Origin: Nitrospirales bacterium
Lineage (GTDB): Bacteria; Nitrospirota; Nitrospiria; Nitrospirales; UBA8639
NCBI GenBank assembly: GCA_029261295.1
Contig: JAJDBP010000031.1
Coordinates: 62,001-126,000, forward strand
Length of the DNA stretch: 64,000 nucleotides
Direction of reading: 5' to 3'
The stretch's first letter is position 1, and every line of letters starts with the position of its first letter. Below, piece after piece: positions 12,997 to 59,370 of the stretch. Position numbers and translations under genes: made by a program. The notes under the pieces are model-generated. The model was not told the DNA's origin. It ran no database searches and worked only from the letters and a program-made list of their open reading frames with translations.

Positions 12997-13042
12997 AATT
13001 AGGGAAGAGGCTAGGCCTTAGACCTGGCCTCTTCCCCTAATT
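12997..13042 (+). promoter_or_regulatory. Long hairpin between flagellin and flaG
   Basis: The arms at 12997-13011 and 13027-13042 pair over 15 bp with a single bulged base. The stem continues inward through TAGG/CCTG around a 7-nt loop (CCTTAGA). No T-run follows on the + strand; the flaG ribosome-binding site (AAAGGAAG, 13043-13050) abuts it directly. It is more likely an mRNA 3'-stabiliser or attenuator that lowers downstream expression relative to flagellin than a classical terminator. Confidence 0.7.
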
Positions 13043-18577: not shown

Positions 18578-19990
18578 TCAGGTAGGGTGAAGTAATTCCG
18601 GCCAATGTTTTTGGAGGGTTTTCTCTGCGGCTTGAGCTAAGACCATATCTTGGGAATGATCTTGGCTGAAAATTCGTAAGGTGATCATCCGAGCGGGAAG
18701 ATGTTGTAGATATGTCCGTAAACTTTCTTTGTCAATGGTGTTGGTGGCAGGGTTCCAAACGAATATTTGAAATCCTCCCATCTGTAATAAGTTGATTGGG
18801 CGAGGGTCCTTGTAGGCAAAATCAATTCGAATGTCTGTCTCTCTCAATTTTAGCGGGAGGGACTTGCGCATACGTGCTAAAAAGGTCTGTGGTTGAAAAG
18901 AGGAAGAGCCCTGAGGAATCGGCACTAAAAGGCTAAAGGCGGTTTTCCATTTAACATGCCTATTCAAAATGTTGGCCCATTCGACCCCGAGTCGGCGTTT
19001 TCCTGGATGGCGGGATTTTGGCCAAGTTCGAACGGTTTCCATAACGTGCCAGTCAGTCAGATGTAAGTACCGAGATAAGGCCTTGAGAGGATTGTGAGGA
19101 AAGAGAAGTTGCAATGTTGGCTGAAATATTTCTTGGAGATGGAGATCTATCGCCCGAGTGGTGCGGTGGTAATAGACATTAGCATAGAGATACAGCCTTG
19201 CATGTAAGAACATTTGGAGGGCTGAGAGCCCTGATTGATGGATCGTGAGACCATGGGATGAGAAAAATGTGTAATGTAAGAGGCGTTCAATATCGACTGG
19301 GCCTATGGCTACTCCGCACATATACGAATCCCGCAGCACGTAATCACAATTATCTGGCGTGAAAATACCCCCTAATAGAGGGCGTAGTGCCGTGACCCAT
19401 GAGGGAAGGCCTTTTGTGCTTTGGTGAGGATCTTTGAGTATAAGAAAAGCAATATGCTCAGGATTCAGCTGTTCGCCATTGGCGAAATAACCCGATGGAC
19501 TCCTCTGAATATTTCGGATTATTTCCCCTAAGTGATCTCGAATAATGTGTTGTCCAACCAATTCGTGCGAGAGACCATATTGATGGAGAAAGTGGTGATC
19601 GAAAAAATGGCAAAAGGGCCCATGTCCAATGTCGTGGAGCAAGGCGGTAATGCGCACAAATTCTTCCAAAAAGGCCAAGGATGGAAGATCTGGAATGATC
19701 CGATGGAGTGAAGGATAGAGCTGTCTCATGAAGCGGCCAGCTAAATGCATTGTCCCTAATGAATGCTGAAAACGAGTATGTTCTGCACCTGGATACACCC
19801 AATGAGCACTTTGGAGTTGAAGAATGTAACGAAGGCGCTGAACCCACGGAGAGTCGATCAGATCTTTTTCTGTCTGTTCCCTGGTTGTGGTGTTAGTAAA
19901 GGGGACGGTGAGAGAAATATACCCATGAATGGGATCAGCCAAAAGGGAGACCCCATCAAAAGGGGGTGCGGATGATTCGATTAGTCGCAT
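18578..19990 (-). CDS. HD-domain phosphohydrolase (SAMHD1/dGTPase-like)
   Basis: The 470-residue product has the HD metal-binding set. HTRFQHSLG gives His71/His76, ALLHDIGHGPFCHFFDH gives the His119-Asp120 pair, and GIFTPDNCDYVLRDSYMCGV supplies the later Asp and the RD motif of the SAMHD1-like branch. The opening DPIHGYI is also typical. Family members cleave nucleotides (often dNTPs to deoxynucleosides and triphosphate). The C-terminal ~170 residues are not recognised. It is the last gene of a - strand set (lon, thiL, DUF2062, this gene), 44 bp after the DUF2062 gene. Substrate cannot be told from sequence. Confidence 0.85.
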   Translation of the reverse strand: MRLIESSAPPFDGVSLLADPIHGYISLTVPFTNTTTREQTEKDLIDSPWVQRLRYILQLQSAHWVYPGAEHTRFQHSLGTMHLAGRFMRQLYPSLHRIIPDLPSLAFLEEFVRITALLHDIGHGPFCHFFDHHFLHQYGLSHELVGQHIIRDHLGEIIRNIQRSPSGYFANGEQLNPEHIAFLILKDPHQSTKGLPSWVTALRPLLGGIFTPDNCDYVLRDSYMCGVAIGPVDIERLLHYTFFSSHGLTIHQSGLSALQMFLHARLYLYANVYYHRTTRAIDLHLQEIFQPTLQLLFPHNPLKALSRYLHLTDWHVMETVRTWPKSRHPGKRRLGVEWANILNRHVKWKTAFSLLVPIPQGSSSFQPQTFLARMRKSLPLKLRETDIRIDFAYKDPRPINLLQMGGFQIFVWNPATNTIDKESLRTYLQHLPARMITLRIFSQDHSQDMVLAQAAEKTLQKHWPELLHPT

Positions 19991-44955: not shown

Positions 44956-46027
44956 CCTGAAAAGTTTCGAAGTTCCTGCAGCTCAAGCTGATGAAGATAC
45001 CTCTCAGGAGCAACAAAAGGGTAAACGCATTCTCCTGATTAAGCTTCGCTATCTGGGTGATGTGGTCTTATCGACTCCGCTGCTTCCTCTTCTGAGAAAA
45101 CAATACCCCGATGCCAAAATTACTTTTCTTGTGAACCCAGGCACTTCGGCTGTCTTACAGGATAATCCCTATTTAGATGAAGTGTGGGTATTGCCCCAGA
45201 AATCTTGGTGGACACAACTCCGATTTATCCAGCGATTGCGCAAGGCCAAGTTTGATACGGTCATTGATTTGACCGATGGTGATCGTTCAGCCTTTCTTTC
45301 TCGGCTATCAGGCGCGGTGACCCGATTAGGATATAACCGAGAAAGACGTTGGCGCGGACGGTTGTATTCACAAGTCTTGCCGTCTGCCTATGGTTCCATG
45401 CATATGGTGGAATATCATCAACAAGCCTTAGAAGCTTTGGGCATTACCGAGTCGGTGGGAAAACCTGAGATCTATCTGAAATCTGTTATCACAGAGCCAA
45501 AGGAAGAAGAATTTGGCGAGGTGTTTAGCCAAGGGCAACCATTGGTACTGTTACACCCAACGGCACGGTATACGTTTAAGGCCTGGCCAATTGAGCGGTT
45601 TGCGGCTTTAGCTGATTGGTTAAGTGAACAGGGGATGAATGTAGGGATCATTGGAAGTCCTAAAGAAATACAGATTGGTCAGCAAATTGGAAATTTAACT
45701 AAACACAAGCCTATCAGCCTCATGGGTAGTACGAAATTGTCTCAATTAATTGGCTTAATGAAGCGGAGTGATCTGATCATTGGCAATGATGGTGGGCCCA
45801 TGCATATTGCCGCCGCGGTAGGGTGCCCGGTGTTAGGACTCTTTGGTCCCTCAGATCCTTCGGTCTGGGGCCCTCGCGGGTTATCTGTTCAAGTTATCTA
45901 CAAGGGATTAGATTGCGAAGAATGTTTCTATCCCGGTTGCTCCCGCGGCGAAGACAGTTGTATGCGTCAAATTTCAGTAAAAGAAGTTTGCCAAGCCGCG
46001 AAGACAATGCTAGCTTTTCCTACCTAG
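44942..46027 (+). CDS. Glycosyltransferase family 9 (heptosyltransferase-like)
   Basis: ATG 44942 is preceded by AGGAGG with 7-nt spacing and overlaps the upstream gene by 14 bp; this decides the start over in-frame codons further upstream. The ~361-residue product has RILLIKLRYLGDVVLSTPLLPLLRKQYP, LHPTARYTFKAWPIERFAALADWL, and IGNDGGPMHIAAAVGCPVLGLFGPSDP. Cysteines (CEECFYPGCSRGEDSC) near the end parallel other GT9 enzymes. NDTGPMH reads NDGGPMH here. It is the last gene of the long + strand array. A ~30-residue N-terminal lead precedes the domain. Confidence 0.88.
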   Translation: MGLINLKSFEVPAAQADEDTSQEQQKGKRILLIKLRYLGDVVLSTPLLPLLRKQYPDAKITFLVNPGTSAVLQDNPYLDEVWVLPQKSWWTQLRFIQRLRKAKFDTVIDLTDGDRSAFLSRLSGAVTRLGYNRERRWRGRLYSQVLPSAYGSMHMVEYHQQALEALGITESVGKPEIYLKSVITEPKEEEFGEVFSQGQPLVLLHPTARYTFKAWPIERFAALADWLSEQGMNVGIIGSPKEIQIGQQIGNLTKHKPISLMGSTKLSQLIGLMKRSDLIIGNDGGPMHIAAAVGCPVLGLFGPSDPSVWGPRGLSVQVIYKGLDCEECFYPGCSRGEDSCMRQISVKEVCQAAKTMLAFPT

Positions 46028-47459: not shown

Positions 47460-47702
47460 TTACCACAGTCGTTTCTTGGCAAACGGTCGTCCCGAACCCG
47501 TCTTAAGATAGGTCTCGAACGCAAGGGCTTTTGAATCTTCAGAAAAACTCACATAGGTGTGGAGCTTCCACGGCGTAAACTTTGAGGTGTGGGTAGAACC
47601 GCCAGCATTGTGACTGTCCAGGCGTGTGTTGAGGTTCGAAGTGACCCCGACATAGGTTTTATTCGAATGGGATTCGCTTTTGATTAAATACACATACTTC
47701 AT
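47460..47702 (-). CDS. GIY-YIG nuclease-domain protein
   Basis: The 80-residue single-domain protein opens with YVYLIKS and has YVGVT after the loop, the GIY-YIG pair. It then has a conserved arginine (LNTRLDSHNAGGS-HT) and a Glu near the C-terminus (ALAFETYLKTG), the remaining catalytic residues. Length is typical for the stand-alone UvrC-like (YhbQ/Slx1-like) group. Its targets are unknown. It lies close to a tRNA-Ser gene and short repeats, a common position for these genes and often mobile. Confidence 0.85.
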   Translation of the reverse strand: MKYVYLIKSESHSNKTYVGVTSNLNTRLDSHNAGGSTHTSKFTPWKLHTYVSFSEDSKALAFETYLKTGSGRPFAKKRLW

Positions 47703-48064: not shown

Positions 48065-48373
48065 TTATAATAAATATGACAAAAACCATTCAGAGATTAT
48101 ATTTCCTGAAGATTTCTCAGCTTGGATTGAGAGAAGGTCCTGGTTTTCGGCTTGGTGATATATAGCTCTGGCCAAAGCATATGATTCTTTAACTGTTCTC
48201 TGACTCACTTCCCGATTCATTCCATCCACTAAGTATTCCATTCGCAGGGGGAGAGGGGCCAATGCTGCTGCAATATCTGGCAGATCGGCTATTCTTAATA
48301 ATCCGCGAATGATTGAATCTGCTGGTTGGTACAAACGCACATCATATTTGATGGTTGTATGGTACTTCTCCAA
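48065..48373 (-). pseudogene. Remnant: C-terminal end of an alpha/beta-hydrolase gene
   Basis: The ~100-residue frame matches the C-terminal ~90 residues of the full-length hydrolase at 57097-59355 across YQP-DSIIRGLLRIADLPD, A-ALAP-PLR-E-LVDG-NR--S and IQAE--SG. It has no proper start: the first frame codon is a TTG, after a stop codon upstream in the same frame. None of the hydrolase catalytic blocks are present. It is thus the 3' fragment of a second copy, in the same orientation as the intact gene, with the giant secreted protein between them. A functional small protein is possible but unlikely. Confidence 0.75.
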
Positions 48374-48399
48374 TAATATTCTTGACTTATTTCACGAAT

Positions 48400-48506
48400 T
48401 TGGTCAGAGTCTTTCGCTCTTGGAAAGCCTGGGTGCGGGCTTCGGGGTTCCAGGAAGATCGGCCATTCCAGCTATAAGCAACGTATAATTTCGGCGTTTA
48501 CGGATG
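48400..48506 (+). promoter_or_regulatory. Structured upstream region of the giant secreted-protein gene
   Basis: Small hairpins occur in a row: AGAG/CTCT (48406-48420), alternative AAGCC/GGCTT (48425-48442) and CCTGG/CCAGG (48428-48454), the last two mutually exclusive. A TATAAT at 48484-48489 could be a -10 box, but no fitting -35 is visible; if it is a promoter, the following hairpin would begin ~10 nt into the transcript. I could not match this to a known riboswitch class. Confidence 0.35.
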
Positions 48507-48551
48507 AATGCCATCTTGAGGGGATTTCCTGAAAGATGGCATTATTTTTTT
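48507..48551 (+). terminator. Intrinsic terminator-like attenuator hairpin in the leader of the giant gene
   Basis: A perfect 11-bp stem (AATGCCATCTT, 48507-48517; AAGATGGCATT, 48533-48543) has an inner AGG/CCT extension. It is followed by A then seven T (48544-48551). The Shine-Dalgarno GAGGA (48552-48556) and ATG 48561 follow immediately. No + strand gene lies upstream for 2.4 kb, so this is not an ordinary operon end; attenuation of the giant gene is the natural reading. Confidence 0.85.
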
Positions 48552-48560
48552 GAGGAACTA

Positions 48561-51500
48561 ATGGAGATTTCCACAATGACCAATGCAGTCCATAGGCCAT
48601 TCCTTAATCAAAACAAAATCTGTCTTTTGCTTGCCTTGGTATTTCTTTTGTTATGTGGATGGTTTTCTCCATTGTTTGCAGCCGTGGAGTTTGAATCGTT
48701 TCAGGTTAAAAATCCCAATCTTCAAACCCAACGCGGGCCGTTGCTGGATGGTATGACTCTTCGGGGAACGATTCGTTTAGCGCCAGCCAGTAATGGGATC
48801 GACCCACTACAAGAGCCGTTGATGGTGACCCTTCGTGACTCGGAAGGTACCGTCCTTTTTTCTCAAACGATTCCTTCAGGAGCCTTTACCAAAAAGAAAA
48901 GAAGGCGCGGAAGCACGGACTATACGTTTAAGGGAGCTGATACTGCCGAATTTCACAACATTCGACTGGCGGTGACAAAGAAAAAAAGCGTGACCTTTAC
49001 CTTAACCAGTAAAAACCTGCAAATGGCCTGCTGTTCCCCGACTATGATGTCGTTGGAAATTGGGGATGATGGTGGGGCCATCAATCTCACGACACAGACT
49101 CAACTGCCGATGGATTCGCAAGGGTTGGTCGCTGAGGAAGGAAGGCCTGAGACTTCTGAGGCGATAGATGAACCGCTTTCGAGTGCTGTGAGTGCAGCCT
49201 TTCCGGAAGATTCGTTGGATGTTGATGAGAATGGCTCGGCTGAAGCCGCCACCGATGGCAAGATCATCCTGCGGTTTTTGTTTGGTCTGCGAGGGAGCGC
49301 CATGACGGATGGTGTGTTAGGTGCCGGTGCACAACAGACCGATCCAGCTGCCATCGCTGCATATTTGGAAGATCGACGGTTGTCGATGCTGGATGTCGAT
49401 TGTAGTGGGACCACGTCCCCCATGACGGATGGCAATTTAATTATCCGGTTTCTCAACGGATTAGATGGAACTGATCTCACCAATGGCATAACGGAGACTA
49501 CTGGGTGCCGTCCTACGGCCGAAGAGATCATTCCCTTCTTACAGCAATTCATTCATACCATGCCCTTACTGGACGTGAATCCACTCAACCTGGATTTTGG
49601 AAATGTCTTTGTGGGCCTCTCATCCACGATGAATGTCATGGTTGGGAATTTGGGGAATGCCCCCCTCTCGATCACGTCTATTTCCACCAAGCCTCCTTTT
49701 ACGGTTTTTGCCCCAACGGCGTTTACCATTTCGATCGGTGAAGCGGCTCGGAAGGTGGGGATCGGATTCACTCCGTCAAGCGCTGGACCTTTTTCAGAAA
49801 CAGTGACCATTGAACAACTCGATGGTTCCTCGGTCATGGTGAGTGCGAATGGTCAAGGAATCGTCGCGAGCGATCCTGGTGATATGAGCGTGCCCCCATC
49901 CCTTGAGTTTGATGAAGTCGCAGAAGAGAAATCTGTCGACCAAACTCTCACGATGACCAATACTGGTCTTGGGCCTCTCACGGTGTTTGGGGTGATGGTG
50001 GATCATACGGATTTTTCGGTCGTGCCCACCCCGGGGGAGATGTTTCCGCTCATCATTCCGCCTGGATCCTCGATGAATCTCGTGGTCACTCTTACGACTC
50101 CTATTGGGAGTGCAGGAACGAGGTTTGAAGGATTACTGACCGTTCAAAGTGACGACCCTGACGAAGGAGATACTGTCGTTCTTCTTGAGGGTCAGGCGGT
50201 GGCCGCTGTCCAAAATAATCCTGTCTTGAGTGCCAGAGTCCAGTTCAATCCCTTTGACCTCATCACCGCAACGACCTGCTCCAACGTCGGTGGGGATGTA
50301 CAGTTTGGATCAGATTCTTTAGCAAGCGACAGTTTCCATGTGGTCCTTACGGATCAGGGCGGGACGGCTGTCATCAGTACGAATTTCAATGGGTCATCAG
50401 GTCCCGGAACCGTCAGCTTTAGCGGTATCAATGCTTGTGGGTTAGCTGATGGCGTGATTTCAGTGAAGGTTATACCCACGATTGGCGGAATACTATTGCC
50501 CGGGTTTGCCGGTACGCCAGCGGTGAAGAATACGTCGACCCTTAATGCGCCAATACTTAATCCCGTCGACCCGGTGAGTGTGCTCTCCGTTATTTCACTC
50601 TGTGGAACCGCTCGAGAGAGCACGACTGTTCGGGTAGAAGGTGGAGCCAGCGTGGTGTCAACGACCTTGGATGCGGCGACCACGAATTTCTGCCTGGATG
50701 TGCCGCTACGAAGAAACTCAAGCAATATATTGATTGCGTCCGCGATTGATGATTTGTCTGTGGCACCCAAACTTGTCGCCTCGGCCCAACAAGTCACCGT
50801 CATGCATGTCGATCCTTCAGAGATTGTTATTGCTCAAGCTTCTTCACGACCTTTGACAGTGGAAGAGATAGAAACGCTCGTGGATAATGGCGTGATCGAT
50901 ATTGATGATCCGACAAATTTCAACGTATCCGTCTATACCGTTGTATTAACCATTGGCTCGTTTGGGTCTTCTTTCCCTAGCACCATTTCTGTGATTGGCA
51001 AATGGCCTAACAAGGCACCAGGTGGCACCGTAGCGTATGGCGGTGGCGGCAGTGGTGGTGGCGGCGGTTGGGGTGGCGGTGGTGGCGGTGGCGGCGGCGG
51101 TGGCGGTGGTGGTGGTGGTGGCGGCGGCGGTGGCGGCGGATGTATCACCGGATGTGCTTTGCCTTTTTGGGTGCAGTTGAAGGAGGGCGGGCCTCAGATA
51201 CCGGGCATCATCATCATCGATGGTCGCATCAAGACGCTTAAAGAATTTTTCCAAGTGACCATTCTGATTCAGAATACCTCTGAGACGTTCATCCTGACGG
51301 ATGTGAATACCATGATCACTCTGCCTTCAGGCTTGTCTCCCGTGCGAGCTGGCTTGGGAACTAATGTGGGTGATGTTAATACCAATGGTGACATCGATAT
51401 GGTGACGTTAGGGACCATTGGTCCACAGACCAACGGAACTGGTCAATTTATCGTGCGCGGGGACGGAATTGGGACGCATGACATTACCGTCAATTTTGAT

Positions 51501-54500
51501 GGGTTCATTACCGGTGGGGGATTGACTGAGCCCTTCCCGATGAATGGCTCAGCGAATACATCAGTCGAAGTCTTTGGCCCGCCCGAACTTGATGTGGTTG
51601 TTCGTCATCCGAGTCGGATAGGTTTGCCCGATGTGATGGTGAATGAAATTTATACCTTATTTGTGGATGTTACGAACACATCCGATCGACCTGCCCTCTA
51701 TGCTAGCATGGAACTCTTTTTGGGCGGCGATGTGCTATTAGTCGACGAAAATGACGTTCCTATCCCCAACTCACACGAAATAAAAAATTTCGGGCATATC
51801 GACCCTGGCGCGACGGTGTCCTCTGCCTTTCGTGTTCAGTCCCTGGTTGAGGGTGAAATTATTGCCTGTCAGGGATTAGCGTCGGAAAACATTACGCTGA
51901 CGGTTGATACGGGCCCTGATGGAGCGCCTTGCAATATTGCTAATACCTTTCCGGCAAATTTTGAGCCGCTCCCTGCAGATGCTGTCCCCACGGTGATTGG
52001 AATCAATCCATTGAATGGACAACCCAATATCCCGGTTACGACATCGGTCTTGGCCGTTTTCACGCCGCAAAGCGCCTGTCTCACGGTAGATACCTGGACG
52101 AATGTCGTGACGCAACCCATCCCAGGAGGCGGGGGGATTCTTGAGATCGTCTCAGCGGATTTAGCCTCCACAGGCACGGTTGTTCTCGAAGAGCTCGATC
52201 CCTTAGGCAACCCCGTGCGACATATTCCGATCGATCTCACGCTGGCCAACCCACCAGCAGGTGGGACAACCATTGCGGCGATGAGATTGGGATTAGATGC
52301 CCCGAATAGCCAGGTATTTCTTAAAGACAATGCAACCTATCGCACTACTATCAAAGGTGGGGGTGGCGGAGTCTGTAGTGCCACGTCATCGGCTACGCTG
52401 GCAGAAGATTTTGTGTGGACGTTCAGTACTGAGCAGAAATGTGAAGGAGTGACGCCTCCTCAGGTCACGATCATTGATCCGGCAGAAGGGTCAATTGATC
52501 GTCCGCTCAATCAGTCGGTAGTGCTCAACTTTACCAATCGAATGAATCCAGCCACGCTCACATTCGTTCCAGGTGATCTTGGGGCAAGCACCTTTAGTGT
52601 GTATACCAATGCCTCAGAAATCGGAGGAGATATTGATATTGCTGGGGCAACGCCCATCGCCGGTCAAGCCGTGTTTAGTAATCTGGAGCAAACGATCACC
52701 TTCATTCCCAGTGCTAATTTACCTGCCGGGGGAACGGTTCATGTGCGCTTGACGGATGGGTTGAAAGATACTTGTGGAAATCCCTTGCAAACCCCGGCTA
52801 ACGGCGTACGTCTTTTCAGCTTCACCGTGCAGCCGCCTGATATAGATCCACCAGCCAACCCGTTGGTTACTCCTGTCGTAACGTTAACCAATCTTAATCA
52901 AATTACGGTCAGTGGATCCGCCGAGCCCTTGAGTACCATGACTGTTACAGGAGGAGCTACGATCGCGACGAATCAAGCCGGACCTTCTGGCCTATTCAAT
53001 GTTCTCGTCACATTAACCCCGTCTCAATCCAACACCCTGCAAGTGCAGTCAGAGGATGCCTCGGGCAATATCTCTGGAGTGGTGTCAGTGGATACAGTTG
53101 GAGGGGCTTTGGTTGTGACCAACGACAGTACCCCTCCCATGGTGAACGCCATCGCGCCAGCTGATGGTGCCAGTGAAATTCCTACGGATTCGGTCATCGC
53201 CGTAGCTTTTAGCGAAGGTATTGATCCCAACACGGTGAACAGCCTCAATGTTGAAGTCAACAATGGAGGCCTCAGCGGGACCTTGAGCTTGGATGGGGGT
53301 TCCGGCTTCACCTTTACCCCGGCAAGCCCTTTAGGAATGAATCAAAATATTTCGATTCGAATACGTGCCAACGGTGTTCGTGACCTAGCGGGCAATGGGT
53401 TGACCGAGGACTTTGTCGCCACGTTTACGACCGTGCAAGGGCCACCAACGATCACCATGATTATTCCCGGCCTTGGAGTGCAGGGGCAGACCGTCAATGC
53501 GGAGATCCGCGGGACAGGTTTAATCAACGTCACGGGTTTGACGATTGACGGGACGGGTGTAACCTTGACAAATCGCGGGACGGGCGATGCCGACACAACC
53601 AGAATTGACGTGACCTTTGCGATTGATTTCACTGCACCTACGGGCAGTCGAACGGTGGAAGTAACAACTCCCACCGGATCTACGACCAACACGTTTATGG
53701 TCCTCCTGAATACTGCCCCAATAGCAAATGCAGGGCTGGATCAAATAGTCTCCGCAGGTGATCTGGTCACGCTGGATGGAAGCGGATCATTTGATTCGGA
53801 CGGACATCCCATTAACTTTGCCTGGACGCTCACGACCGTTCCGCAAGGAAGTGCAGCCAGCTTGACGAATGCCAACATGGCCATGCCGACATTCACGGCT
53901 GACCTAGGCGGAGAATATCGCACGCAACTAGTAGTAGACGATACCGCCGCATTCTCGACACCTGACGAAGTCATCATCACGGCAGTCGCCATACCGCAAA
54001 CGGTCACATTGGGCCCAGCCCCAGCACAAATGCTCACGCGATCCAGTCTCACGCTCACGGCGGTGTTGGACGCGCCAGCGCCAGCAGGTGGACAAGTCGT
54101 CAATCTTAGCGCAAGCAATGGCAAAGTCACGGTATCAGCCACTGCCATCGTTCCCGGTGGGGCCACAAGTGTGGATTTCTCAGCAGATTCCAATACAGAA
54201 ACCGGAGTCGTGACGGTCGATGCCACCTCGACAGGGTTGGTGGGCTCTTCATCAGAGATCACGGTCAATGCCCGAACCTTCAGTCTGACCATTCCATTAG
54301 TAGGACTTGATCGAACGGTCACGGGAACCGTCACGCTACTAGACCCTGCGCCAGTAGGTGGAGCAACGATCTTATTGTCTTCTGATGACCTGGGGGTGGC
54401 CACCATATCTCCAGACTCGGTAACCGTGCCACAAGGAGGGACCACGGCGACCTTCGAGGTGACTGGCAGTTCAACAGTCGGGTTTACCAATATCGTAGGG

Positions 54501-56564
54501 AATGGTCTGGCCGATGGTTATATCTCCGTCAGCCAACCCATCTCAGTCACGGATCGCGTCATCGACCTCCCTGGTTCACGCACACTTGCGCTGGGCGAAA
54601 CCATTCAGATTCCGGTCCTCATCGCCCCGGATCCGGCGCCAGCGGGCGGCGTGACCATTGCGCTCACGAGCAGCGATCCCGCAATCGTCTCTGTGCTTAC
54701 CCCAACCGTTGTAATTGCGGAAGGTGAGTTCACCGCTGATGCAACAATCATGGCCAATAGTACAACCATGGGAATCGCAGACATCATGGCCAGTAATGTC
54801 GGTTTTGCTCCGGATGTCACGAACGCGATGGTGACTGCAGATCTCCAAATTCTGGAATCTACGGTTCAGTTCGACCACCTCGAAACAGGCCATATCTTTC
54901 TACGTATAAAAAGTGGGGGTCAGCCATTTCCGGCTGCAGCTGGCGGGCTCAATGTCGCACTCAGTGCTGACGACACGACCTGTGTGACTGTGGCCCCGAC
55001 GGCCACGATTCCGGCGGGTGAGTCAATATTAGAAGTGCTCTTGACCTATGGCGGGACGGCGACCATCCCCTGTAATACAACTGTCACGGCTACGAACTTG
55101 CAATTTGGGACCGATGCCGTACAAGTCACGATGGGCCCACAAGTTGATGATCTGGGGTCGCTAAGCTTCACCGCGTTTGGTGGAACGCGAGTAGGCGGAG
55201 GGTTGCAAGACAGCAATTTCCGCCTGAACTTGAGTAGTGGTGCCCATGCTGGAGTAACTGTTCAACTGCGAAGTAGTGATCCATCGAGCATGTTGCTATC
55301 CGATGGAGGTTTTGTCGCAGGTGATGCCATATTGGAAGTTGCCTTTACCCCAGGGCAGACGACTAAGTTTTTTACGGTGCAAGGGGTGGCGGGGGCGACG
55401 GGCCCGGTGACGATCACAGCGACAGAGCCGCGGTTTACGGATGGGACGGTGAATGTGGAGATTGTCGAGCCGGTAGTAGATATCCTAAGTCTGTCGCCAA
55501 CCCATACGATCACAACAGTACAGCAGATTGCGGATAATGTATTTACGGTCCGTACAGGGATTTTGAATGTGGCCGGGACGAGCTTGAGCCCTGAGCAGCT
55601 CGTGAGTGCGGCGGCGGGGCCGTTGACGGTGGATTTGGCGAGTAGTGATACCGCATTTGGGTCGCTGGTGACCAATGCGGGCACGGCGGGCACGGGGCAG
55701 GTGGTCGTGCCAGTGAATAATTCTCGATCTCCGGGTAATGTGGCCTCCGGGGGCAGTGCGGTGACGTTTCCGGCGTTTCCGTCGGCGGTGACAGGGTCGA
55801 CGGACATTACGGCGACGGCGATAGGGTTTGGCCCAGATACTGCGACAGTGAATGTAACGGTGACGGCCGCGAATATAAGCTTCACCGCGTTTGGTGGAAC
55901 GCGAGTAGGCGGAGGGTTGCAAGACAGCAATTTCCGGATGACCTTGAGTGGAGGCGATCATGGGGGCGCGACGGTACAGCTAACGAGCAGTAATCCGGCG
56001 GTAGCGTTGGTGGCGCCGGATGGGGCGACGGCAGGGAGTACGTCGATCAATGTGGTCTTTGCCAATGGCCAGACGATCAGAAATATTACGGTGCAAGGGG
56101 TGGCGGGGGCGACGGGCCCGGTGACGATCACAGCGACAGAGCCGCGGTTTACGGATGGGACGGTGAATGTGGAGATTGTCGAGCCGGTCCTGGATATTCT
56201 GAGTTTATTTCCAACGATTTCTTCCAACGCACCGAACAATTCCTTTACGGTCCGTACGGGGATTCCCAATCAAGCCGGGACGACTTTGAGCAATGAACAG
56301 GTCGTTAGCGCGGGGGCGGGTACGTTACAGATCTTGACGACGAGTAATAATCCAGAGGTCTGCCAACTTATCACCAACGCAGCAACTGGTGCTCAGGCAA
56401 CCGTAGAGGTACAACCCAATCAAAGCCGATCTCCCTCTTCTGTCGCCACCGGTGGGGTGGCGCATGGTCCACTGACTACCGGGTCTTGTACAATTACGGC
56501 GACGTCGGGTGACTTTATCAATGGATTTCCGGATGCCTCGCAAGATGTGACGGTGACTCCTTAA
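48561..56564 (+). CDS. Giant secreted multidomain protein (dockerin-like, HYDIN, Ig/Big, IPT, PKD, repeats)
   Basis: The ~2,667-residue product starts with a signal peptide (KICLLLALVFLLLCGWFSPLFAA). Two calcium-loop, dockerin-like segments follow (~218-325: LDVDENGSAEAATDGKIILRFL and LDVDCSGTTSPMTDGNLIIRFL), then two HYDIN/choice-of-anchor-D domains (~334-547). A 34-residue glycine tract (~827-860) precedes DUF11-like strands. Two Big_5-type domains (~1300-1625), an IPT/TIG domain (~1630-1715), a PKD domain (~1718-1810, NAGLDQIVSAGDLVTLDGSGSFDSDG), CalX/invasin-like repeats (~1813-2097), and long near-identical repeats (~2201-2667) complete it. There is no autotransporter, LPXTG, PEP-CTERM or obvious sorting signal at the C-terminus. 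Start ATG 48561 has GAGGA 4 nt before it; ATG 48576 is an alternative. It is probably a surface or matrix adhesin; secretion route unknown. GC and codon use (many GCG/ACG/GGG) are higher than in flanking genes. Confidence 0.88.
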   Translation: MEISTMTNAVHRPFLNQNKICLLLALVFLLLCGWFSPLFAAVEFESFQVKNPNLQTQRGPLLDGMTLRGTIRLAPASNGIDPLQEPLMVTLRDSEGTVLFSQTIPSGAFTKKKRRRGSTDYTFKGADTAEFHNIRLAVTKKKSVTFTLTSKNLQMACCSPTMMSLEIGDDGGAINLTTQTQLPMDSQGLVAEEGRPETSEAIDEPLSSAVSAAFPEDSLDVDENGSAEAATDGKIILRFLFGLRGSAMTDGVLGAGAQQTDPAAIAAYLEDRRLSMLDVDCSGTTSPMTDGNLIIRFLNGLDGTDLTNGITETTGCRPTAEEIIPFLQQFIHTMPLLDVNPLNLDFGNVFVGLSSTMNVMVGNLGNAPLSITSISTKPPFTVFAPTAFTISIGEAARKVGIGFTPSSAGPFSETVTIEQLDGSSVMVSANGQGIVASDPGDMSVPPSLEFDEVAEEKSVDQTLTMTNTGLGPLTVFGVMVDHTDFSVVPTPGEMFPLIIPPGSSMNLVVTLTTPIGSAGTRFEGLLTVQSDDPDEGDTVVLLEGQAVAAVQNNPVLSARVQFNPFDLITATTCSNVGGDVQFGSDSLASDSFHVVLTDQGGTAVISTNFNGSSGPGTVSFSGINACGLADGVISVKVIPTIGGILLPGFAGTPAVKNTSTLNAPILNPVDPVSVLSVISLCGTARESTTVRVEGGASVVSTTLDAATTNFCLDVPLRRNSSNILIASAIDDLSVAPKLVASAQQVTVMHVDPSEIVIAQASSRPLTVEEIETLVDNGVIDIDDPTNFNVSVYTVVLTIGSFGSSFPSTISVIGKWPNKAPGGTVAYGGGGSGGGGGWGGGGGGGGGGGGGGGGGGGGGGGCITGCALPFWVQLKEGGPQIPGIIIIDGRIKTLKEFFQVTILIQNTSETFILTDVNTMITLPSGLSPVRAGLGTNVGDVNTNGDIDMVTLGTIGPQTNGTGQFIVRGDGIGTHDITVNFDGFITGGGLTEPFPMNGSANTSVEVFGPPELDVVVRHPSRIGLPDVMVNEIYTLFVDVTNTSDRPALYASMELFLGGDVLLVDENDVPIPNSHEIKNFGHIDPGATVSSAFRVQSLVEGEIIACQGLASENITLTVDTGPDGAPCNIANTFPANFEPLPADAVPTVIGINPLNGQPNIPVTTSVLAVFTPQSACLTVDTWTNVVTQPIPGGGGILEIVSADLASTGTVVLEELDPLGNPVRHIPIDLTLANPPAGGTTIAAMRLGLDAPNSQVFLKDNATYRTTIKGGGGGVCSATSSATLAEDFVWTFSTEQKCEGVTPPQVTIIDPAEGSIDRPLNQSVVLNFTNRMNPATLTFVPGDLGASTFSVYTNASEIGGDIDIAGATPIAGQAVFSNLEQTITFIPSANLPAGGTVHVRLTDGLKDTCGNPLQTPANGVRLFSFTVQPPDIDPPANPLVTPVVTLTNLNQITVSGSAEPLSTMTVTGGATIATNQAGPSGLFNVLVTLTPSQSNTLQVQSEDASGNISGVVSVDTVGGALVVTNDSTPPMVNAIAPADGASEIPTDSVIAVAFSEGIDPNTVNSLNVEVNNGGLSGTLSLDGGSGFTFTPASPLGMNQNISIRIRANGVRDLAGNGLTEDFVATFTTVQGPPTITMIIPGLGVQGQTVNAEIRGTGLINVTGLTIDGTGVTLTNRGTGDADTTRIDVTFAIDFTAPTGSRTVEVTTPTGSTTNTFMVLLNTAPIANAGLDQIVSAGDLVTLDGSGSFDSDGHPINFAWTLTTVPQGSAASLTNANMAMPTFTADLGGEYRTQLVVDDTAAFSTPDEVIITAVAIPQTVTLGPAPAQMLTRSSLTLTAVLDAPAPAGGQVVNLSASNGKVTVSATAIVPGGATSVDFSADSNTETGVVTVDATSTGLVGSSSEITVNARTFSLTIPLVGLDRTVTGTVTLLDPAPVGGATILLSSDDLGVATISPDSVTVPQGGTTATFEVTGSSTVGFTNIVGNGLADGYISVSQPISVTDRVIDLPGSRTLALGETIQIPVLIAPDPAPAGGVTIALTSSDPAIVSVLTPTVVIAEGEFTADATIMANSTTMGIADIMASNVGFAPDVTNAMVTADLQILESTVQFDHLETGHIFLRIKSGGQPFPAAAGGLNVALSADDTTCVTVAPTATIPAGESILEVLLTYGGTATIPCNTTVTATNLQFGTDAVQVTMGPQVDDLGSLSFTAFGGTRVGGGLQDSNFRLNLSSGAHAGVTVQLRSSDPSSMLLSDGGFVAGDAILEVAFTPGQTTKFFTVQGVAGATGPVTITATEPRFTDGTVNVEIVEPVVDILSLSPTHTITTVQQIADNVFTVRTGILNVAGTSLSPEQLVSAAAGPLTVDLASSDTAFGSLVTNAGTAGTGQVVVPVNNSRSPGNVASGGSAVTFPAFPSAVTGSTDITATAIGFGPDTATVNVTVTAANISFTAFGGTRVGGGLQDSNFRMTLSGGDHGGATVQLTSSNPAVALVAPDGATAGSTSINVVFANGQTIRNITVQGVAGATGPVTITATEPRFTDGTVNVEIVEPVLDILSLFPTISSNAPNNSFTVRTGIPNQAGTTLSNEQVVSAGAGTLQILTTSNNPEVCQLITNAATGAQATVEVQPNQSRSPSSVATGGVAHGPLTTGSCTITATSGDFINGFPDASQDVTVTP
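51039..51140 (+). repeat. Polyglycine-coding GGN tract
   Basis: 34 consecutive codons are almost all GGC/GGT, broken only by one Ser and one Trp codon. It encodes a flexible linker of ~34 residues bordered by Cys codons (C.-tgC) just after. The run is prone to slippage in steps of 3 bp, so length variation between strains or assemblies is likely. Confidence 0.9.
55162..56188 (+). repeat. Two-copy 714-bp tandem repeat in the giant gene
   Basis: Blocks of perfect identity recur with a constant 714-bp (238-codon) offset: 55162-55222 equals 55876-55936 (61 bp), and 55372-55474 equals 56086-56188 (103 bp). The intervening sequence has diverged in the protein (e.g. NLSSGAHAG versus TLSGGDHGG). The encoded repeat is SFTAFGGTRVGGGLQDSNFR...VQGVAGATGPVTITATEPRF. 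Such exact islands inside a diverged repeat point to recent gene conversion. Confidence 0.92.
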
Positions 56565-57096: not shown

Positions 57097-59355
57097 TTAT
57101 ATATGTGCCATGAACCATTTTGCGATATCCTCACCAGAAGCGTTTTCAGCCTGGATGGTTAATCTATGAGATTGGTTCATTTGAGCATAGGCCGCTCGGG
57201 CTCTGTTGTAGGTCTCTTCAGCTCGCTTGCGGCTGATCTGCCGATTGCACCCATCCACTAGTCCTTCTATTCGTAGGGGACGAGGAGCCAACGCCTCGGC
57301 CATATCAGGTAAATCGGCGATTCTTAACAATCCTCGAATGATTGAATCCACTGGCTGATAGACAAATGGTTCATCTAGCATTGCCTCATAACTTAGAAGA
57401 CTTCCCTGTATATACACGGCCCGGATGTCTGGTTCGTACAGCGCGGCAAAGAGAGTGGCCACTCCAGCTAACGGTTCTCCTCGCTCTGGATAGTGAGTGG
57501 CATCTAACGGGACGGCGAGTTTCTTCCCATGTGGGTTGGGTGCCGCAAGAGAATCAGCCCAAAGACCTATTCGATTTTCATCGATTTCTTTTCGATTACG
57601 GAGATGGTCTATGACGGTTCGTAGATCGCGCACGCGAGAACTGAGCAAGCTTTCCCCAAGCATGAGACTTGTGGTAGTGACACCGGCGCTCGGACTGAGT
57701 CTGCCTCTGTACACTTCGCCATGTCGCCCATCGCCGATCCCTCGCATTTCCACTAAACAGACGGCTATCTTTTGACCCAACAGACTCTGGATCATTGGCA
57801 GACGTTCTTTCTTGAGTCTGAGATTCCCCTCCTGCGTCACACCAATCACTATTGGTGGTTTCGTTTTGCCCAAACGAGACGGCCATAGAATTTGAAAGCG
57901 GACGAAAAGGTTTTCTTCGACTTCCAAGACTACATAGCCCGATTTTCCAAAACCTCGACGCGTTGATTGCACTCGATAGGATGGGAAGGGCGTTATGGGT
58001 CTCAGAATCTCGGTGAGTTCTTGTTGCAACTGTCCCGCCTGTGTGCCTTGCTCTTCCGCTTCTCGCAGAATACGACGAGTGGTGAGGTGTTTTTGGGCCA
58101 TGTCTGGTGTGATTTGATGAACCCGGTGCGGGCTGAATGTTTTGCGTGCCTCCTTGGTCAAACATTCCAGCTTTGCCTTTTGAACCGGTTCGGTCACTTC
58201 TTGTTCAGGAACAGGAATATCAAACCATTCTTGCAATATGGGATAGAGCTGCTTGCGATGGATGGGACCGACATTGGTGCAATGGGAATCCAGGGGACCA
58301 TGCCGCGATATTCGGCCGGACCCGTGTACTGAGTGGAGCGCATCGCGTTGGCCATAGAGCTCATAGACTTTTTCAAGATATTTCCAAGTCATATCATGCT
58401 GAGGATCCCAAGAAAATTCTCGTCCATAGACCAATCGGCGTGGGGCAATCGAGCAAAGAATGACCCATGGCCAGAATCCCAATCGAGCCGTATCCGGAAG
58501 ACTTCTTGTTGAGTCCCACTCACCCATCGAGAGAGGCCCGAAGTTAAATGCGACCACTGCTGTCACACGCTCATCCAATGCACCAACGACTGCTGCTAAA
58601 TCTCCTCCCCCTGCCACTGCCCCGATGACGATGATTCGGTCACGATCAACTTGGGGATTCGCCCATAACCAATCAATGCCACGCCTCACATCTTGAACCA
58701 TCCATCCCATTAAGCTTTCGCCGATCAGATCCAATTGCATGCCCAGCACATGTCGGAAGTAATAGTCTTGCCGGTCAAGACGAAATGAATCGTTGTAGTT
58801 CGCTGGTGAGGCGAAGGGATGTTGCCGTCGTTCACCATGCCCTAGTAAATCCATAATGAGGACTGCGCAACCTTGTTGAGCCCACGTCATCCCCATGCAT
58901 TGTAATTCTTCTTGAGTTTTGGGCTCGTGATGACTGTGACAAATGATAATCGCTGGCGTTTTCTGAGAGCTTAGGGTTGGACGATAGAGGTTCGCTGTCA
59001 CGGGTACATCCCTGTGACCCTGGTAGACGATATTTTCAATGCGGTATCGATCTCGTTCTACTGTACCACTGACAACCGAGTTCGGGGTTTCCAAATTCGT
59101 CACATTGTTGGTGAGGGAAAGACGGAGTGCTGCCATGCGTTCCTCACAGAAAGTCTCCCACTCGGCTTTTGTGCTTATGCCATCTAAAAGGGATATATCC
59201 TTTTCTGCTGCTTCTTGTAGTTGTGTTGAGAGATGATCGCCAAGCTCTCGAATCCGTCGATTGCCGAATGCTACTTTTCGTGCCCATAGCCATTGGCGAA
59301 CCTGTGAAGGGAGTAGTGCTTTCACCAAACTTTTGATTGGCATATGGCTAGCCAT
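57097..59355 (-). CDS. Double alpha/beta-hydrolase-domain protein (acetyl-xylan-esterase/dienelactone-hydrolase-like)
   Basis: The ~752-residue product holds two hydrolase-like domains. The first (~105-370) has PAIIICHSHHEPK, LIMDLLGHGERR and VIGAVAGGGDLAAV, where the usual nucleophile Ser of GASGGG is Ala. The second (~480-700) has VEMRGIGDGRHGEVYRG and IGLWADSLAAPN, with a Ser in a non-canonical A-D-S-L-A. A C-terminal segment (YQPVDSIIRGLLRIADLPDMAEALAPRPL) is duplicated as a remnant at 48065. No signal peptide is evident. ATG 59355 is my choice; TTG 59370 is in frame. Related enzymes deacetylate or hydrolyse sugars and esters, but the missing Ser makes activity of domain one doubtful. Confidence 0.8.
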   Translation of the reverse strand: MASHMPIKSLVKALLPSQVRQWLWARKVAFGNRRIRELGDHLSTQLQEAAEKDISLLDGISTKAEWETFCEERMAALRLSLTNNVTNLETPNSVVSGTVERDRYRIENIVYQGHRDVPVTANLYRPTLSSQKTPAIIICHSHHEPKTQEELQCMGMTWAQQGCAVLIMDLLGHGERRQHPFASPANYNDSFRLDRQDYYFRHVLGMQLDLIGESLMGWMVQDVRRGIDWLWANPQVDRDRIIVIGAVAGGGDLAAVVGALDERVTAVVAFNFGPLSMGEWDSTRSLPDTARLGFWPWVILCSIAPRRLVYGREFSWDPQHDMTWKYLEKVYELYGQRDALHSVHGSGRISRHGPLDSHCTNVGPIHRKQLYPILQEWFDIPVPEQEVTEPVQKAKLECLTKEARKTFSPHRVHQITPDMAQKHLTTRRILREAEEQGTQAGQLQQELTEILRPITPFPSYRVQSTRRGFGKSGYVVLEVEENLFVRFQILWPSRLGKTKPPIVIGVTQEGNLRLKKERLPMIQSLLGQKIAVCLVEMRGIGDGRHGEVYRGRLSPSAGVTTTSLMLGESLLSSRVRDLRTVIDHLRNRKEIDENRIGLWADSLAAPNPHGKKLAVPLDATHYPERGEPLAGVATLFAALYEPDIRAVYIQGSLLSYEAMLDEPFVYQPVDSIIRGLLRIADLPDMAEALAPRPLRIEGLVDGCNRQISRKRAEETYNRARAAYAQMNQSHRLTIQAENASGEDIAKWFMAHI

Positions 59356-59370
59356 GACCTCCGAACTCAA

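Follow-up and report, generated by a model that had tools for sequence, protein, structure and literature searches.

A probable intrinsic leader terminator immediately before the gene for a 2,667-residue secreted protein in a Nitrospirales bacterium

The question raised by this locus is why a hairpin with the form of a transcription terminator should stand immediately before the start codon of a giant gene, and whether it controls that gene. The following features lie at this point of the window, which is the whole stretch of 64,000 nucleotides that was analysed.

48507-48543, + strand: intrinsic-terminator hairpin with a perfect 11-bp stem (48507-48517 with 48533-48543) and an inner 3-bp stem
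48545-48551, + strand: T7 (U7) tract, read from the sequence, with one A (48544) between it and the hairpin
48552-48556, + strand: Shine-Dalgarno GAGGA for the ATG at 48561, spacing 4 nt, from the sequence and the anti-SD duplex
48561-56564, + strand: gene of 2,667 codons for a secreted multi-Ig protein, with a signal peptide judged by eye and Big_5, Big_6, PKD and HYDIN/ASH-type Ig domains

The initial annotation had described both stems, the A, the T7, the GAGGA and the ATG as well as a product of 2,667 residues, and all of these are present in the sequence, including the number of codons between 48561 and 56564. It had also called the product a secreted adhesin, where the word adhesin is a reading of the Ig-like domains.

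The two arms of the hairpin, AATGCCATCTT (48507-48517) and AAGATGGCATT (48533-48543), are fully complementary, and the order over 48507-48543 is AATGCCATCTT-GAGGGGATTTCCTGA-AAGATGGCATT, followed by A48544. This is a stable, G+C-containing stem directly before a U-tract, as expected of an intrinsic terminator (11 bp, -19.7 kcal/mol for 48507-48543 by RNAfold, A, T7), and sequence and thermodynamics together identify the hairpin and T7 as a terminator. The core of the stem had a pair probability of about 1 for every transcript start tried, and the fold of 48500-48560 (-21.4 kcal/mol, z -4.4) was equalled by none of 200 shuffles. The window has a single terminator-like hairpin of greater stability, at 13037 on the - strand, and its T-run is poor. 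A simple terminator scan had overlooked the hairpin at 48507-48543 because its loop limit was 8 nt. Rarity was judged in a background sample of 377 kb from this genome, made up of the window, its flanks and other contigs. Among perfect stems with a T-rich tail, 15 had 8 bp or more against 2.2 expected from shuffles and two had 10 bp or more against 0.2 expected, and the hairpin is therefore more than chance. Several of the counted stems sit directly after stop codons, which suggests that this organism very probably uses intrinsic terminators.

Whether the hairpin lies in the leader depends on where the giant gene starts. An ATG at 48504 is in frame with the gene, the reading frame is open, and if this were the true start the hairpin would be coding sequence (MNAILRGFPERWHYFFEEL...). 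However, this ATG lacks a Shine-Dalgarno, its anti-SD duplex being only -1.7 kcal/mol, compared to -6.2 for the ATG at 48561 and -7.4 for an ATG at 48576 that could use GGAG at 48563-48566 as its Shine-Dalgarno. The hexamer score of 48504-48560 is non-coding, and about 40 residues would precede the signal peptide. The sole family-level relative of the protein's N-terminus (genome G028, 34% identity) aligns in a way that fits a start at 48561 or 48576. A start at 48504 is thus extremely improbable, and the hairpin most likely belongs to the leader, outside the coding sequence. Since the T-run abuts the Shine-Dalgarno, any full-length mRNA would have to cross the hairpin unless it started inside it.

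The leader and its surroundings contain four further features.

48068-48335, - strand: truncated abhydrolase 3' end (last 88 codons), by tblastn, 58% identity to an intact paralogue at 57097-59370
48348-48377, + strand: weak sigma-70-like promoter candidate, TTGATG-18-AATAAT
48442-48532, + strand: candidate antiterminator, 48442-48468 with 48506-48532, 22 bp with bulges, which excludes the terminator stem
48484-48489, + strand: TATAAT without a recognisable -35 element, from the sequence, which would place a transcript start about 11 nt upstream of the hairpin

It had been claimed that no + strand gene lies upstream for about 2.4 kb, and this holds: the nearest + strand ORF of at least 100 aa ends at 46027, and none ends between there and the hairpin. 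The features back to that point are all on the - strand, namely the abhydrolase remnant, a tRNA-Ser and a gene of 353 aa. A small GIY-YIG-like endonuclease frame was also seen by eye at 47466-47701 (- strand), adjoining the tRNA-Ser.

The reading favoured here, and held to be somewhat better than evenly balanced, is that 48507-48551 is an intrinsic (Rho-independent) leader terminator that would lower the amount of full-length giant-gene mRNA and in this simple sense be an attenuator. We infer that termination takes place in vivo as follows. Transcripts would begin upstream, perhaps near 48384, and most would stop at the T-run (48545-48551). Read-through polymerases alone would continue into the Shine-Dalgarno and the 8 kb of coding sequence, and it is for this reason that full-length mRNA would be lowered. 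Termination may be relieved by a signal, possibly one that leads 48442-48468 to pair with the 5' arm of the terminator. The initial annotation had proposed attenuation, and as far as a leader terminator with required read-through is concerned the proposal is well supported by the orientation, the T-run, the energy, the position, the lack of an upstream + strand gene and a cobalamin riboswitch precedent in the same genome. The part that called for regulation through a sensor is not supported. If the terminator works, RNA elongation is the level at which this bacterium of the Nitrospirales limits expression of an 8-kb gene for a surface protein.

The transcript start bears on two other readings. 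The promoter-like site at 48348-48377 and the terminator, with no coding-like ORF between them, could bound an independent small RNA of about 48384 to 48551, in which case the dependence of the giant gene on its read-through would be incidental. However, the leader upstream of the hairpin (48336-48500) folds no better than shuffles (z -1.3), such an RNA has no Rfam match and it is not conserved, so this reading is very unlikely. The second reading takes the perfect TATAAT at 48484-48489, which is at a fitting position, as the promoter. The hairpin would then be only a stable 5' UTR structure that protects the mRNA or shapes initiation, with the Shine-Dalgarno remaining single-stranded just past the stem and the T-run unused. 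This is considered quite unlikely, as the -35 element is absent and a U7 directly after a strong stem is the signature of a terminator that protection does not need. The sigma-70-like promoter scan as a whole gave no excess above chance, which counts against this second reading as well.

The main rival to the leader-terminator reading comes from the history of the locus. In the congener G001, an intact abhydrolase gene adjoins the same tRNA-Ser, along with a counterpart of the 353-aa gene as judged by position and length. Only the 3' remnant is left here, which places a rearrangement junction that truncated the abhydrolase gene at about 48336, 171 nt upstream of the hairpin, as read from the sequence comparison. 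The junction and the intact gene in G001 mark the giant gene and its leader of roughly 225 nt as accessory DNA. The giant-gene block looks as if it was inserted at, or recombined into, the counterpart of the intact abhydrolase gene next to the tRNA-Ser in the congener. The intact paralogue at 57097-59370, also on the - strand, is divergent and flanks the giant gene on its far side. Because the giant gene begins about 0.2 kb past this junction, the hairpin may be a relic or exapted 3' terminator that once served a gene or element removed by the rearrangement, and that now causes accidental and unregulated partial termination. The stop codon (48486-48488) of a 45-aa + strand ORF (48351-48488) precedes the hairpin by 18 nt, a distance commonly seen where genes end. 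At -19.7 kcal/mol the hairpin is also nearer the published mean for 3' terminators (-20.2 kcal/mol) than that for 5' terminators (-16.5 kcal/mol), and cases in which a 3' terminator is exapted into a leader have been described (PMC2965389). However, that frame is non-coding by score and has neither a Pfam match nor a copy elsewhere in the genome, and no mobile element was identified. A relic terminator is a possible but doubtful explanation. The 45-aa frame is also the only + strand ORF found there that could serve a ribosome-mediated (leader-peptide) attenuator, and as it scores as non-coding and neither a Shine-Dalgarno nor a codon run was seen in it by eye, it does not qualify as one.

The case for a sensor was examined separately from that for the terminator. 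Stems at 48425-48454 had been suggested as the sensing part, but they are unremarkable and the fold of 48410-48505 does not surpass that of shuffles (z +0.8). The earlier remark that no known riboswitch class could be recognised was borne out: a covariance-model search with Rfam 15 at the gathering threshold matched only the tRNA-Ser in the window, with no known riboswitch, T-box or ribosomal leader, and a permissive search gave nothing beyond unrelated sub-threshold matches. The alternative helix of 48442-48468 with 48506-48532 would block the 5' arm of the terminator, and with some 5' ends its energy approaches that of the terminator state to within about 2-4 kcal/mol. For hand-picked starts this energy gap seemed significant (1/300), but this was lost once the 5' end was scanned, when the gap was reached by 17 of 400 shuffles and 11 of 400 genomic segments (about 3-4% by chance). 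The pairing is only suggestive. A lineage-specific transcriptional switch, in which signal-driven pairing of 48442-48468 with the terminator 5' arm permits production of the costly 2,667-residue surface protein, is given as a rather unlikely possibility. As the folds are unremarkable, Rfam gave no match, the leader has no homologue and the antiterminator is expected at this frequency by chance, sensor-based regulation of the attenuation is unproven on the sequence analysed here.

Conserved or covarying stems would have spoken for regulation, but the leader is unique among the 236 genomes of the order, with no homologous leader in any of them. There is no copy of it elsewhere in its own genome and none in plasmids. 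Three genomes (L008, L058 and L059) gave matches of 20-25 nt to the leader that were attributed to chance, and two of the matches fall inside prs-like coding sequence. The 20 other genomes of the genus contain no relative of the N-terminus of the giant protein, and protein relatives were absent from viral contigs. Across the phylum this N-terminus has the one family-level relative in G028 and two weak order-level ones, and a separate collection gave a locus that is apparently G028 again and two distant ones. The G028 gene has a hairpin, a T7 and a GAGG some 100 nt upstream of its start. This was rejected as conservation of the leader, given that the DNA similarity exceeds the 95th but not the 99th percentile of shuffles and that an upstream frame stops about 150 nt short of that hairpin. 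The more distant relatives (L066 and L067) have no leader terminator. Nor is a leader terminator a rule for giant genes, since only two others of the 14 ORFs of at least 900 aa in the 377 kb have a weak leader hairpin with a T-tail (-13.4 and -12.9). Clusters of giant proteins of up to 5,159 aa are present on two other contigs (L041-L044 on C6 and L045-L047 on C24). These share a domain of about 120 aa with the window protein at approximately residues 213-341 (counted from the ATG at 48561), a position at which the window protein has no Pfam name.

Other terminators of the same genome help to place the one studied here. A cobalamin riboswitch (RF00174, 69.7 bits; L050:17917-18121 = C14:22917-23121) has its own terminator, a hairpin and T7 from C14:23168 directly before its gene, the whole element spanning L050:17917-18196. 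A second leader terminator outside Rfam, on the - strand at C17:55189-55217 (L052:10189-10217), is a strong hairpin (-22.8 kcal/mol) with a T-run, 22 nt upstream of a gene of 285 aa, and a P4-like primase gene was seen by eye nearby. Nearness to a Shine-Dalgarno alone proves no regulation, as a bidirectional terminator at C2:255915-255944 abuts the start of the next gene and apparently ends the preceding one. Two similar elements of a hairpin and a T-run (CATGCACCGACGGCAGCCGCC...) were also observed at L051:18280-18318 and 19323-19359, close to clustered paralogues on contig C22 that encode secreted proteins of about 210 aa.

Intrinsic terminators in leaders are a well-known kind of element, and a leader terminator alone does not indicate a new class of regulatory RNA. 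The closest comparison within the genome is the cobalamin riboswitch (C14:22917-23196), which likewise has a hairpin and T7 in the leader before its gene; however, it has a recognised aptamer and conserved structure, and the 48507 leader has neither. Naville and Gautheret (2010) took as 5' terminators those in the orientation of the gene, at most 300 nt from the first codon and with the downstream gene nearer (PMC2965389). The 48507 hairpin resembles these attenuator candidates in having a T-run, in being on the strand of its gene with the stem 17 nt from the ATG at 48561, and in having its nearest upstream same-strand ORF end as far away as 46027. It differs from the mean 5' leader terminator in that study in energy (-19.7 compared to -16.5 kcal/mol) and in stem length (11 compared to 7.0 bp), and from the leader attenuators in that it was not found across species and has no identified sensor. 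The same study described exapted "mobile attenuators", in which 3' terminators of insertion sequences or prophages come to stand before a gene. No insertion or prophage sequence was recognised here and the genome has no second copy of the hairpin, in contrast to those elements, but the position near a rearrangement junction is shared with them. If the terminator works, a leader terminator this close to the recombination junction of an accessory gene would agree with the published account of attenuators arising by exaptation.
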